NCBI RefSeq assembly: GCF_900112975.1
Contig: NZ_FONQ01000002.1
Span: 62,001 to 126,000 of the forward strand
Length of the DNA stretch: 64,000 bases
DNA from: Flavobacterium xueshanense
GTDB taxonomy: Bacteria; Bacteroidota; Bacteroidia; Flavobacteriales; Flavobacteriaceae
Reading direction: 5' to 3'
Position 1 is the first letter of the stretch. Each line of letters opens with the position of its first letter. Positions 3-34,657 of this stretch are shown one piece after another. The notes under the pieces are model-generated. The model made no database searches. It was not told where the DNA came from and saw only the letters and a list, made by a program, of their open reading frames with translations. The position numbers and the translations under genes were made by a program.

Positions 3-2585
3 ATATACTCCGGAAATCATAAAGAATTAGATGCCGATTTTATATTTTCAACCATCCAAACAATTTCTAGAGATTCACATTTAAAACAATTTAATCCAAA
101 TCATTTTGAATATATCGTAATTGATGAAACACATAGAGCAAGTGCTGAATCCTATCAAAAAATATTGAATTATTTCAATCCTAAGTTTTTATTAGGAATG
201 ACGGCAACACCCGAAAGAACAGATGGACTTGATGTTTTTAAGCTTTTTGATTACAACATAGCTTATGAAATACGTTTACACAGAGCATTAGAAGAAAAAA
301 TGCTTAGTCCATTTCATTATTATGGAGTTACAGATATAACGGTTGATGGAAAAATATTAGATGAAGATTTTAATTTCAATTTTCTCGTTTCTGAAGAACG
401 AATAGACCGAATAATTGAAAAAGCTAATATTTATGGTTGCGATAATGACAAAGTCCGTGGATTAATTTTTTGTTCCTCGAATAATGAATGTCTAGCTTTA
501 TCAAATGGTTTTAATCAACGAGGCTATAAAACTATTGCACTTTCAGGTGATAGTTCCGAAGAACAAAGAGCTCAATCAATAAAAAATCTTGAATCAAATG
601 AGAAAGAAAATCAATTGGATTATATATTCACTGTTGATATTTTCAATGAAGGTATTGATATTCCAAGTGTAAATCAAATAATAATGATTAGACCTACTCA
701 ATCTGCTATAGTCTTTATACAACAACTTGGACGTGGGCTAAGAAAGATTGACAATAAAGGATATTTAACGGTAATAGATTTTATTGGGAATTATAAAAAT
801 AATTTTTTGATTCCTATTGCATTGTATGGAGATACAACTTATAATAAAGATTCGATAAGAAAACTCATCTCAAGTGGCAGTGATTTAATCCCTGGAACAT
901 CTACAATCAATTTCGATCAAATTTCAAAAGAAAGAATATTTGAATCCATAAATTCTGCTAACATGACATTGAAAAGAGACTTGGTAAAGGACTATACTCT
1001 TTTGAAGTTTCAGTTGGGACGTATTCCTATGATGATCAACTTTTTAGAACATGGTTCTAGAGATCCGTTCCTGTATGTAAGATATTCAAAGTCATATTTA
1101 AATTTCGTGATAGAATTAGAAGATAATTTAAAATTGCATATTGACATCAGGGAAAAGAAACTTCTTGAGCTTTTTTCAAATGAAATCAATAATTCGAAAC
1201 GCATAGAAGAGAGTCTAATTTTAAAGCACTTAATTCATTCAAAAAAAATAGACATTGAAAATTTTAAATCCCAAATTAAAAAGGAATATGGATATTTAAT
1301 CTCTGACGAAACTATTGATTCTTCTTTAAATAATTTAAATTTTAAATTCATAACTGAAAACAAAGACAAGAAACTTGTTACAGTCAATAAAATTTATGGG
1401 TTTAGTATATTAGAAAAAGTAGGTGATAAAATTATTATTAATGAATCGTTCTCAAAAACTTTAAATAATTCAATCTTTTTTCAATTCTTAGAAGACAATA
1501 TTGACTACTCGATTAAAACATTTAATAAATTATTTAAGAAGAATAAATTCATTGAAGGCTTTGTCTTATATAGGAAATATTCAAGGAAGGATGTTTTTAG
1601 AATATTAAATTGGGAAAGTAATCCTTTAGCACAAAATGTTGGTGGATATTTGATTAATTCAGACAAAACAAATTGCCCTATTTTTGTAAATTATCATAAG
1701 GAAAAAAGTATTTCTAGCACTACTAAATACGAAGATCGTTTTATAAGTAATTCAGAATTTGAATGGATGTCTAAATCAAAACGCACTTTAAATAGTCCTG
1801 ATGTTAAATCAATACTAAATCACAAAAGCGAGTTGCGTTTACCTTTATTTATTAAAAAAAACAATGATGAAGGGACAGAATTCTATTTTATGGGAGATAT
1901 GAAACCTACAGAAAACGGATTTGTCCAAACTACTATTCCTGATGATAACGGAAAACTAGTATCTGTAGTTAAAATTAACTTTACAATGAATCATCCTGTT
2001 GAAGATTCGATCTACGAATATTTGACAAATGGTAAAGATATAGAATTAAATTCACAAGAAATCATTGAACCAATACCTGTTGTTGAAATCAATTTATCTC
2101 CTTTTAGAGTCTTACCTTCCGATGAAATTAATCAATATGTAAATTGCATTCCATTATACGATATTAAAGCAGCTGCCGGTAATTTTAGTGACTTGCAAAT
2201 TAATGAGGAAACTGAATGGATTGAATTAAGCAAACCTTTTAAATATAATTCAGATTATTTTGTTTGCAAAGTAATTGGAGAGTCAATGAATAAAATAATC
2301 CCAAGCAATTCTTGGTGCCTATTTAAAAAAGACACAGGTGGCTCTAGAAATGGAAAAATTGTCTTAGTTCATCAAAGTAACATTCAAGATTCCGATTTCG
2401 GAAGAGGTTTCACAGTGAAATCATACGAAAGTAAAAAAAGTATAACGGAAGAAATCTGGTCACATAATTCTATAATATTAAAACCACAATCATATAACCC
2501 TACTTTCAAAAGCATCGTATTAGTAGATGATGATGATTTGATTGATTTAAAAGTAATAGGGCTTTTTGTAGAGGTCTTAAATTAA
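3..2585 (+). CDS. SF2 DEAD/DEAH-type helicase with DUF3427 and C-terminal S24 peptidase-like domain (5' partial)
   Basis: The reading frame is open from the first bases, so the N-terminus lies outside the window. The visible part starts just before a helicase motif II (IDETHRA), then motif III-like GMTATPERTDG, and a second RecA lobe with FNEGIDIPS and QQLGRGLRK (motifs V and VI). A middle region matches DUF3427 (TKYEDRF, then LPLFIKKNNDEGTEFYFMG). The last 150 residues resemble LexA/UmuD-type S24 domains. Numbering from the internal Leu codon at 165, the nucleophile would be Ser707 in VIGESMNK and the general base Lys752 in FTVKSY. Family knowledge: DUF3427 helicases often carry an N-terminal PLD-type nuclease, but that part cannot be seen here. 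A role in DNA damage response or phage defence is inference. A terminator follows the stop directly. Confidence 0.85.
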   Translation: MYSGNHKELDADFIFSTIQTISRDSHLKQFNPNHFEYIVIDETHRASAESYQKILNYFNPKFLLGMTATPERTDGLDVFKLFDYNIAYEIRLHRALEEKMLSPFHYYGVTDITVDGKILDEDFNFNFLVSEERIDRIIEKANIYGCDNDKVRGLIFCSSNNECLALSNGFNQRGYKTIALSGDSSEEQRAQSIKNLESNEKENQLDYIFTVDIFNEGIDIPSVNQIIMIRPTQSAIVFIQQLGRGLRKIDNKGYLTVIDFIGNYKNNFLIPIALYGDTTYNKDSIRKLISSGSDLIPGTSTINFDQISKERIFESINSANMTLKRDLVKDYTLLKFQLGRIPMMINFLEHGSRDPFLYVRYSKSYLNFVIELEDNLKLHIDIREKKLLELFSNEINNSKRIEESLILKHLIHSKKIDIENFKSQIKKEYGYLISDETIDSSLNNLNFKFITENKDKKLVTVNKIYGFSILEKVGDKIIINESFSKTLNNSIFFQFLEDNIDYSIKTFNKLFKKNKFIEGFVLYRKYSRKDVFRILNWESNPLAQNVGGYLINSDKTNCPIFVNYHKEKSISSTTKYEDRFISNSEFEWMSKSKRTLNSPDVKSILNHKSELRLPLFIKKNNDEGTEFYFMGDMKPTENGFVQTTIPDDNGKLVSVVKINFTMNHPVEDSIYEYLTNGKDIELNSQEIIEPIPVVEINLSPFRVLPSDEINQYVNCIPLYDIKAAAGNFSDLQINEETEWIELSKPFKYNSDYFVCKVIGESMNKIIPSNSWCLFKKDTGGSRNGKIVLVHQSNIQDSDFGRGFTVKSYESKKSITEEIWSHNSIILKPQSYNPTFKSIVLVDDDDLIDLKVIGLFVEVLN

Positions 2586-5460: not shown

Positions 5461-6474
5461 TTATTCACTCTCTTTTCCTTGCTCAAAATTCTGTAATTCA
5501 ATATTCATAGCTTCCAACAACTGTTGTTCCGTTGGCAGGTATAATTTATATTGACTGGCTACAATATTTTTTTCGTTTTCCGGCAGCGTGAATTTCACGA
5601 CACCTTCATTTTTATTGGCACAAAGCAAAATACCAATAGTTGGATTTTCACGAGGCAGTTTTTCTACTCGGTCGTAATAATTGACATACATCTGTAGTTG
5701 ACCAATATCCTGATGCGTGAGTTTATCTGTCTTGATTTCGATAATGACGAAGCATTGTAATATTCGATTATAAAAAACTAAATCTGTAAAAAATTCATCG
5801 CCGTCAATGTGTATTCTTTTTTGTCTCGCGACAAATGAAAAACCATTTCCCAGTTCCAATAAAAAATCTTGCAAATGCGTAATTATTGCGCTTTCTAAAT
5901 CTCTTTCGTAATAAGCCGCTTCCCGTTTTAGTCCCAAAAATTCTAAATACATCGGGTCTTTTATAATCTCTTTAGCATCCGAAGGCAGTTTTTCATTTTT
6001 AGCTACAGCAAGTACGCTTTCTTTATCATTGCTGATTAAAAGGCGTTCGTATAAGCTACTGTTGATTTGACGTTCGAGTTGTCTTGATGTCCAATTATTC
6101 TTTACACTTTCCGCAACATAAAACTCTCTTTTATATTGATTGTCAATTGTCAAAAGGAATTTATATTGTGTCCAACTCAATTGCGTCCGCAGTGCGGACG
6201 CAATTGGAAACATTCGATAAAACTGTCGGTATCTCTCTAATTGCCTCACTGAAAAACCACTTCCATATTCTGGTTGTAATTGTTGCGAAAGAAATTTAAT
6301 TAAATACGTTCCATAGACCGCACGTTCCTTTCCGTCTTGTTCTTCCAAGAAAATACGTTGCCCAATATACCAATACATCAAGGTTCTTTCATTGTCCACC
6401 GCTTTAATCGCTTTGTCTTTCGAAGCTGCTATAATGGCTTTAATATCAGGAATTACAGATTGGTTTTGTAGCAT
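5461..6474 (-). CDS. DUF1016 / YhcG-family PDDEXK nuclease-domain protein
   Basis: A 337-residue protein with the two-part DUF1016 architecture: an N-terminal helical region (YWYIGQRI; FSVRQLERYRQFYRMFP; LSWTQYKFLL; REFYVAESVKNNWTSRQLER) and a C-terminal PDDEXK nuclease core with Asp in FFTDLVFYN and the E-x-K motif in FVIIEIKT, followed by GQLQMYVNYYD. Family knowledge: DUF1016 proteins are common accessory genes, sometimes near restriction systems; their substrate is poorly defined. It appears monocistronic. Codons for the stretch IASALRTQL are made of a perfect 29-base palindrome (6178-6206), which is unusual for coding DNA. Confidence 0.9.
   Translation of the reverse strand: MLQNQSVIPDIKAIIAASKDKAIKAVDNERTLMYWYIGQRIFLEEQDGKERAVYGTYLIKFLSQQLQPEYGSGFSVRQLERYRQFYRMFPIASALRTQLSWTQYKFLLTIDNQYKREFYVAESVKNNWTSRQLERQINSSLYERLLISNDKESVLAVAKNEKLPSDAKEIIKDPMYLEFLGLKREAAYYERDLESAIITHLQDFLLELGNGFSFVARQKRIHIDGDEFFTDLVFYNRILQCFVIIEIKTDKLTHQDIGQLQMYVNYYDRVEKLPRENPTIGILLCANKNEGVVKFTLPENEKNIVASQYKLYLPTEQQLLEAMNIELQNFEQGKESE
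6178..6206. repeat. Perfect 29-base palindrome within the DUF1016 coding sequence
   Basis: Arms CAATTGCGTCCGCA and TGCGGACGCAATTG pair at all 14 positions around one central base. The element is in frame and encodes part of a conserved stretch just before LSWTQY. A near copy is at 5335-5361. Confidence 0.9.
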
Positions 6475-34053: not shown

Positions 34054-34260
34054 CTAAAACTTCTTACTCACATCTATCCCAATTCTCCAAATGATCAATT
34101 GGTTTTCTTTGATGCCTTTTATCGGAGCATAATTGGAATTTTCAGGCATGAGATAAAAACAATCTTTCTCGACTTGCCCACGTTTTACGGTAAATTTTCC
34201 TTCAATAACACAAATCGCCACTTAATTGTTTTTCGGTTCCAAACTTCTTTTCGCACTCAG
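34054..34260 (-). pseudogene. Remnant of a UmuD-like S24 peptidase gene
   Basis: On the minus strand one frame reads LSAKRSLEPKNN, an in-frame TAA (34224-34222), then VAICVIEGKFTVKRGQVEKD, CFYLMPENSNYAPIKGIKEN and QLIIWRIGIDVSKKF before a stop. This matches the C-terminal half of UmuD-type proteins, with the catalytic-type Lys in FTVKR and the conserved LMPEN-x-Y-x-PI and IIWRIG strands. The N-terminal half with the catalytic Ser is not found, and no umuC lies nearby. The 694-base gap between the pump and the next gene holds this remnant, the terminator and otherwise nothing convincing. Confidence 0.75.
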
Positions 34261-34657
34261 AACATAGTTGTCATTGCTCCCATAGCAGTACTGATATTTC
34301 CTATAACTACTGTAAAAAGTAACCAACGGATTTTCACTAAGTTTTTTGATCAAATTAATGATGGCTATTTTAATAGCGTTATTGCATTGCTAACACCCCA
34401 AAAAAAACGTATCAAATCCAACAGAAAACATGTTAAAAAATCTTAACATTTGCCTTTGAATAAAATTATTTTTCGCTATTTTTAAAATATAAAGTACTGT
34501 ATTTAAACGTTTTAAATTTAAAAAGAAATCTTCAATTTAAAAACACAACATCTTGATTCAAAAGTTTGGCATACTACTTGGATATTGCTTATCAAATAAA
34601 ACAAAAAAGCGAAAGCCGAAAAGCTCAAGAGTAGGCAAAATTCAAAATAGATGTATC

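Follow-up and report, generated by a model that had tools for sequence, protein, structure and literature searches.

The window analyzed here is a stretch of 64,000 nucleotides from Flavobacterium xueshanense (contig NZ_FONQ01000002.1, positions 62,001 to 126,000), and its first gene encodes, by homology, a restriction enzyme with a LexA-type autoprotease domain attached to its end. The body of the protein resembles SauUSI of Staphylococcus aureus, and the attached S24 domain, here called the tail, could be a damage-triggered off-switch for the enzyme, a reading whose chances we put just short of even. Type IV enzymes act on suitably methylated DNA without a partner methylase, and the way in which they spare their own cell is, to our knowledge, poorly understood. 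If the proposal is true, an enzyme carrying the cell’s damage sensor couples restriction directly to genome integrity, and restriction alleviation becomes accessible to test by one point mutation. In the parts of the open-access literature that were searched, no fusion of an S24 domain with a restriction enzyme is described.

The gene and its domains

The window opens inside the gene. Its first frame, on the forward strand, has 860 residues with an open 5' end and corresponds to residues 296-1155 and the stop, that is, to the 3' three quarters of the gene. The complete gene (L002:5119-8586 in the coordinates of its locus) encodes 1155 residues; its start (L002:5119) is on the same contig but outside the window, 885 bases 5' of the first in-frame codon that the window contains. 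The 1155-codon frame is unbroken and the same architecture was found again in 59 complete loci, which rules out an artefact of assembly or frameshift. Pfam places, in order, PLDc_2 (46-164, encoded upstream of the window), ResIII (217-367), Helicase_C (441-542), DUF3427 (686-970) and Peptidase_S24 (1012-1105). An earlier note, written from the window’s letters alone, had described a helicase-DUF3427 protein fused to an S24 domain and had proposed recovering the whole gene and searching it with hidden Markov models; the recovered gene and the four domain families named there (PLDc, ResIII, DUF3427 and Peptidase_S24) bear that description out. The features are as follows, in window coordinates unless marked otherwise.

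3..2585, + strand: SauUSI-type restriction enzyme gene with S24 tail, 3' part (open frame; phmmer match to SauUSI 7clg)
3..218, + strand: ResIII (ATPase 1A), C-terminal part with the DETH motif (Pfam)
438..743, + strand: Helicase_C (ATPase 2A) domain (Pfam)
1173..2027, + strand: DUF3427, which equals part of the coupler plus the SRA domain (Pfam, E 6e-84)
1560..2030, + strand: SRA (methylcytosine-reading) domain, about residues 815-971 (model aligned to SauUSI 803-953, Z 15.7; pocket residues)
2031..2144, + strand: unconserved linker, residues 972-1009 (15% mean identity in 62 fused proteins; low predicted local distance difference test score, pLDDT)
2145..2582, + strand: S24 (LexA-type autoprotease) tail, residues 1010-1155 (Pfam Peptidase_S24; LexA 1jhe, Z 15.2)
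2175..2180, + strand: codons of the predicted scissile bond Ala1020|Gly1021 (motif and alignment)
2283..2285, + strand: codon of the predicted catalytic Ser1056 (motif and alignment)
2418..2420, + strand: codon of the predicted catalytic Lys1101 (motif and alignment)
L002:4725-5117, outside the window: NUDIX gene, 130 amino acids, directly preceding the enzyme gene

A type IV restriction enzyme of the SauUSI type

SauUSI (7clg) is matched over its full length by residues 8-971 (E 5e-234), and the PADLOC model mREase_IV matches residues 5-971 (E 4e-241). Compared with a Staphylococcus copy of SauUSI, which itself matches 7clg residues 1-953 with 2066 bits, the window protein is 42% identical over 985 alignment columns. 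The nuclease and ATPase motifs are kept: HSK..GSSN at residue 121 (an HKD-type PLD motif), GTGKT at 248, DETH at 336, TATP at 362 and GRGLR at 538. DUF3427 is presumed to be a reader of modified DNA (available text of PMC7159879 and PMC3874153). In SauUSI the base pocket is formed by Tyr831, Phe841, Ile842 and Trp868, with Met829 inserted into the DNA beside it (available text of PMC7913695). The pocket residues correspond in the window protein to Tyr844, Phe856, Val857 (a conservative change) and Trp883. Because the homology to SauUSI is full-length, the motifs are kept, and so are most of the pocket residues, the protein is classed by homology as a SauUSI-type type IV restriction enzyme with a PLD nuclease, a superfamily 2 (SF2) ATPase, a coupler and an SRA domain. 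The helicase motifs seen earlier are real, and what had been taken for an undefined helicase is better described as this enzyme.

The tail

The S24 domain sits C-terminal of the SRA domain and the variable linker (Pfam E 9e-6; 25.8 bits against a cut-off of 23.3), with Ala1020|Gly1021, Ser1056 and Lys1101 present. The serine and lysine had been recognized before, correctly 45 residues apart, but under the wrong numbers, 707 and 752; they are residues 761 and 806 of the 860-residue frame. The Ser-Lys distance is 37 in LexA and UmuD and 43 in lambda CI, and the scissile glycine lies 34-35 residues before the serine in LexA and UmuD. The spacing was held to be close to that of LexA and UmuD, and this is right for Gly1021 to Ser1056 (35 residues); with 45 residues from serine to lysine, that distance is CI-like more than LexA-like.

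A structure prediction, which had been named as the check that could overturn the assignment, returned an S24 (LexA) fold for the C-terminal region. The AlphaFold2 model of residues 806-1155, built with 59 aligned sequences, has a mean pLDDT of 79.6 and a predicted template modelling score (pTM) of 0.51. Its tail (model residues 205-350) aligns to LexA 1jhe with Z 15.2 and a root-mean-square deviation of 2.0 Å over 119 residues, to RecA-bound LexA 8gms with Z 14.7, to lambda CI 8gmu with 13.9 and to UmuD' 1ay9 with 9.9, all of these scores for LexA, CI and UmuD' being re-alignments of Foldseek candidates. The SRA part aligns to SauUSI 7clg with Z 15.7. Foldseek’s own list at E <= 0.001 held SauUSI and one SRA protein only, with no LexA; a tail profile against the sequences of the Protein Data Bank gave no relevant match (best 1zhh, E 0.24). 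The LexA-specific NCBIfam model was not reached (12.9 bits against 110.95), as expected since the protein is not LexA. The match to the LexA fold, together with 67% mean identity in the tail against 15% in the linker, argues that the resemblance is more than chance, and the tail is, as modelled, a LexA-type S24 fold with the residues predicted for self-cleavage.

Recurrence of the fusion

The genome surveys covered Bacteroidota and neighbors filed with them; in addition, species genomes were scanned once by motif. DUF3427 was surveyed in 395 phylum genomes (47 with a match) and 397 family genomes (33 with a match). SauUSI-type matches, defined as those above 200 bits, came from 15 distinct genomes, one of which (G380) holds a gene piece on a short contig and was left out. 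The domain pair, for which the earlier note had proposed a survey, does recur: the tail is present on 10 of the 14 complete SauUSI-type genes. These 10 fusions were found via DUF3427, with no use of the tail in the search, and AAAG, serine and lysine are intact in all of them.

The tail-motif scan demanded the Ser motif or the AAAG motif, with the lysine in no pattern. Among the best 80 of its 299 relatives (79 loci), 71 loci are SauUSI-type (59 of at least 1100 residues), seven have the tail on another kind of protein and one is a fragment. Across 62 long fused proteins, the serine, the lysine and AAA are kept in every case and the scissile glycine in 61. Serine and lysine are 45 residues apart in each of the 80 proteins measurable by motif. 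Among the 62, mean pairwise identity falls from 67% in the tail to 58% in the SRA domain, 56% in the coupler and 15% in the linker. The tail of genome G118 (L035/L007), whose residues are intact, was omitted from the 62. Alignment A2 was made of the window protein and 58 of the 59 complete fused proteins, and alignment A3 comprises 36 of the 59.

The hosts are mainly Bacteroidota, plus Balneolota and a supported group of four Pseudomonadota that includes the isolate Psychrosphaera sp. B3R10. One locus (L090) is labelled as a Rhizobium metagenome-assembled genome, yet it is probably a misbinned contig because its enzyme groups inside the Bacteroidota clade. A split system, with a separate S24 gene beside an unfused enzyme, was absent from the stretches of the 13 unfused loci examined. 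A phage origin of the tail was set aside after a scan of viral contigs gave just five relatives, at 22-35% identity. A survey with PF00717 was too unspecific to be of use, matching at least 371 of the 395 genomes.

The same tail on other nuclease motors

With a tail profile at a chosen threshold of E <= 1e-20, matches were found in 18 of the 395 phylum genomes: six on SauUSI-type enzymes, nine on helicases of a GIY-YIG/Schlafen-group-3 kind and three on HsdR-type proteins. The GIY-YIG/Schlafen-group-3 proteins have 722-800 residues; eight were confirmed by Pfam and the ninth (G316) is a 203-residue piece. Two of the three HsdR-type proteins were confirmed (HSDR_N, SWI2_SNF2, T1R_D3-like and S24; PADLOC REase_I), and the third is cut by a contig end. 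Every tail with a readable host protein, 16 in all, belongs to an ATP-dependent nuclease-helicase or restriction motor. The loci are the following.

L170:4025-7570: HsdR with S24 tail; HsdS, PtuA and PtuB in the same gene run
L171:3036-6584: HsdR with S24 tail; a PtuA match also present
L147-L150, L152, L154, L173-L175 and L177-L181, also in L092 and L129: GIY-YIG/Schlafen-group-3 helicases with S24 tail

The companions of the HsdR gene in L170 are, by PADLOC, a type I specificity subunit and the Septu genes PtuA and PtuB. Schlafen-group-3 helicase proteins adjoin the SauUSI-type gene in L090, L107, L112 and L129 (4 of the 59) and also in L092 and L165. In L165, a Lactiplantibacillus plasmid, the gene order is NUDIX, SauUSI-type, MazG-like, GIY-YIG helicase. 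Neighbors of GIY-YIG-type genes include a PD-Lambda-2_B match (L148:6425-7582, E 4e-38) and a partial RdrA match (L173:4149-5099, E 1.5e-15).

Over 97 tails from several protein types, the lysine is kept in 97 of 97, the serine in 96 of 96, and Ala/Cys-Gly and Ala at P2 each in 95 of 96. In these counts one truncated row is missing the start of the tail, and five phage repressors were left out. Three entries (L153, L172 and L176) are fragments classed from the tail alone. Because the tail occurs on three kinds of nuclease motor with its catalytic residues kept, a general design can be argued. A portable LexA-type self-cleaving tail on at least three classes of ATP-driven restriction-type motor (SauUSI, HsdR and the GIY-YIG/Schlafen-group-3 helicases) would let RecA filaments switch restriction off from within, a general built-in restriction alleviation; we hold this wider proposal more tentatively than the one for the window enzyme.

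How the off-switch would work

As in SauUSI, the enzyme would read 5-methylcytosine (m5C) through its SRA domain, translocate, and shred DNA with dimers of its PLD nuclease. If breaks built up, above all in the cell’s own DNA, RecA filaments would form. These filaments would stimulate self-cleavage at Ala1020|Gly1021 by Ser1056 and Lys1101, leaving a freed body with -Ala-Ala-Ala as its last residues. Such a terminus resembles those of LexA and ssrA, and ClpXP could take the body up. Once ClpXP has done so, the enzyme would be destroyed and restriction would therefore stop, which amounts to restriction alleviation inside the enzyme itself.

Shut-off is favored because the -AAA end of the body resembles both the LexA degron and the host’s own ssrA tag (GENNYALAA), and because the tail also sits on HsdR, whose class is alleviated via ClpXP in EcoKI. 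RecA and ClpX are both encoded in this genome. LexA cleavage uncovers latent ClpX motifs (PMC10584840), the type I enzyme EcoKI is alleviated through ClpXP (PMC11109961), and the S24 regulators of the SOS response in Bacteroidetes have the same elements (PMC8565304), each according to the available text. Nearly every tail has Ala at both P1 and P2, so that predicted cleavage would leave an -AA end. The cleavage residues were counted in favor as well, being intact in the 10 fusions found without reference to the tail and, with one exception at the scissile bond, across the 97 tails, and the greater conservation of the tail than of the SRA domain and coupler was counted in the same direction.

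Several points weigh on the other side. Self-cleavage is itself a prediction from sequence, and Ala at P1 and P2 may be kept purely as cleavage-site sequence. The conservation of the serine and of AAAG is in part built in, because the motif scan selected loci by one or the other. Four of the 14 complete Bacteroidota genes do without the tail, and as SauUSI is active without one, tail removal alone need not inactivate the enzyme. Met829 of SauUSI is replaced by Gly842 in the window protein. In the available text, restriction alleviation of EcoKI is reported as not an SOS function (PMC11109961), and IrvR, a LexA-like protein, does not use RecA (PMC7101444).

Other roles for the tail

The tail could instead be an on-switch, inhibiting the enzyme until RecA-triggered clipping during phage damage frees an active SauUSI-like body. 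A cut at Ala1020|Gly1021 leaves nearly the SauUSI layout, with a body that ends with the SRA domain at residue 971, and the cleavage residues are intact. Activation keeps some probability because SauUSI is active without a tail (available text of PMC7913695). However, the new -AAA end resembles a degron, and restriction of incoming DNA presumably has to be quick, ahead of a damage signal, so that an enzyme that had to await damage would act late; this would favor the off-direction. In the full-length model (pTM 0.42, low confidence) tail and body do not touch; so uncertain a model cannot place the tail on the body, and the finding does not count against the on-switch. On balance the on-switch is unlikely, at about one chance in four.

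Less probable by a clear step is a docking or dimer domain, in which the tail would bind RecA filaments or another tail and so place or pair the enzyme, with proteolysis secondary. The fold does match RecA-bound LexA, lambda CI and UmuD (8gms, 8trg, 8gmu and 8gmt). Docking alone, however, needs no serine, lysine or scissile glycine, yet these are kept in the 10 fusions found with no motif demanded, and SauUSI already dimerizes via its nuclease domains (available text of PMC7913695). Slightly less credible still is constitutive processing, in which the tail is clipped off as the protein folds, as a pro-sequence would be, and needs no trigger: S24 and signal-peptidase-like folds self-cleave spontaneously in some settings and the tail has weak Foldseek matches to signal peptidases, but a full LexA-like fold at 67% conservation would seem to exceed the needs of a disposable pro-sequence.

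Transcriptional control of the operon through SOS boxes found no support. The two motifs published for Bacteroidetes (PMC8565304) occurred upstream of the operon as exact matches in 2 of 59 loci (GGA-N5-TCC) and 0 of 59 (CTAA-N5-TTAG), against shuffle means of 1.0 and 0.47, and neither stands before the window gene. With no enrichment, any control would therefore act at the protein level.

The partner gene

A NUDIX gene lies 1 bp upstream of the window enzyme gene, and a NUDIX frame directly precedes all 59 complete fused genes (gaps of -38 to +13 bp; in L095 the frame is cut by the contig start), which rules out reading the enzyme as a single-gene system. The NUDIX gene is also upstream in all four unfused SauUSI-type loci of Bacteroidota. 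Of nine plasmid or phage-collection records, five have it annotated, S. aureus among them, and the remaining four are unannotated. In the S. aureus SauUSI record, an annotated (deoxy)nucleoside triphosphate pyrophosphohydrolase gene is immediately upstream (L162:2607-2999). More distant DUF3427 proteins have a NUDIX gene in L040 and L043 and none in L041 and L042. None was found at seven GIY-YIG/Schlafen-type loci of the motif scan, one of which lacks upstream sequence; a MazG-like nucleotide pyrophosphohydrolase lies upstream in all 10 loci of this type tested by Pfam. The steady presence of a nucleotide pyrophosphohydrolase, whether NUDIX or MazG-like, suggests that these systems include a second gene.

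The NUDIX protein of the window locus matches the PADLOC candidate PDC-S07 (E 2e-46), and its closest entry in the Protein Data Bank is 3gwy, a “putative CTP pyrophosphohydrolase” (E 3e-39). NudG, and weakly MutT, hydrolyze 5-methyl-dCTP (available text of PMC3744803 and PMC5158307), and for this reason a role in removing methylated or modified dCTP is a reasonable guess. By analogy, the protein probably hydrolyzes modified pyrimidine nucleotides such as 5-methyl-dCTP; it would then prevent modified dCTP from being built into host DNA and so exposing that DNA to the enzyme. The words “nudix” and “MutT” appear nowhere in the SauUSI mechanism paper (PMC7913695), and the original SauUSI paper (PMC3141236) might mention the neighbor. 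In the open-access literature searched, PMC7159879 alone names both SauUSI and nudix, and its Nudix passage deals with other systems.

Origin and surroundings of the window gene

In the core tree, the body of the window enzyme falls with unfused enzymes, apart from the 61 other fused bodies. The tail tree places its tail closest to the GIY-YIG-type tails (58% identity). An independent second fusion is possible for the window enzyme; the alternative of one fusion with later losses is not rejected, as a single origin in the core tree has an approximately unbiased (AU) p of 0.076. For the tails, p is 0.405 with the window tail joined to the GIY-YIG tails and 0.618 with it joined to the SauUSI tails, so that the test does not separate the two placements. 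The core tree left out the frameshifted copies L162 and L167 and the distant proteins L041 and L042. The tail tree left out 19 entries, all duplicates of kept ones except the tail of G118. The topology tests kept, besides the window’s own, 26 SauUSI tails and 21 fused bodies.

The congener G218 has matching flanks (4.3 kb at 81.5% and 2.4 kb at 84.6% identity), and between them lies another type IV enzyme (PADLOC PDLC03659, E 7e-237), which is oriented the other way round and comes with a NUDIX gene of its own (L040 compared with L002). This slot seems to be a hotspot for systems of this sort. A function in defense, earlier an inference, is better grounded by the slot, the full-length SauUSI-type body and the retention of most pocket residues. 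Two further observations concern the window itself. At 5461-6474 on the reverse strand, 2.9 kb behind the restriction gene, a 337-residue protein matches the PADLOC candidate PDC-S02 (E 4e-140) and a PD-DExK model. At 34054-34353 on the reverse strand lies a broken S24 (UmuD-like) gene, with a profile match at 34093-34269 and one in-frame stop.

Comparison with known systems

SauUSI of S. aureus, which depends on m5C or 5-hydroxymethylcytosine (hm5C), has the same order of PLD nuclease, SF2 ATPase, coupler and SRA domain as the window protein, and like it has a NUDIX gene directly upstream. However, its chain stops after the SRA domain, whereas the window protein continues into an S24 tail. 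LexA, lambda CI and UmuD share with that tail the fold, the Ala-Gly bond, the serine and the lysine. They differ in their Ser-Lys distance and in carrying a DNA-binding or short N-terminal part, where the window tail is joined to a restriction enzyme of some 1010 residues. The GIY-YIG/Schlafen-group-3 proteins (about 730 amino acids) have the same kind of tail, the nearest to that of the window, and likewise combine an N-terminal nuclease and a helicase with an upstream nucleotide pyrophosphohydrolase. Their nuclease and helicase are of another kind, a MazG-like gene takes the place of NUDIX, and Pfam finds no DUF3427 in them. The HsdR proteins of L170 and L171 carry the scissile bond, serine and lysine in the same C-terminal tail, on an enzyme that is type I. 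EcoKI, also type I, is a motor-nuclease shut off by proteolysis without the need for an S24 tail (available text of PMC11109961).

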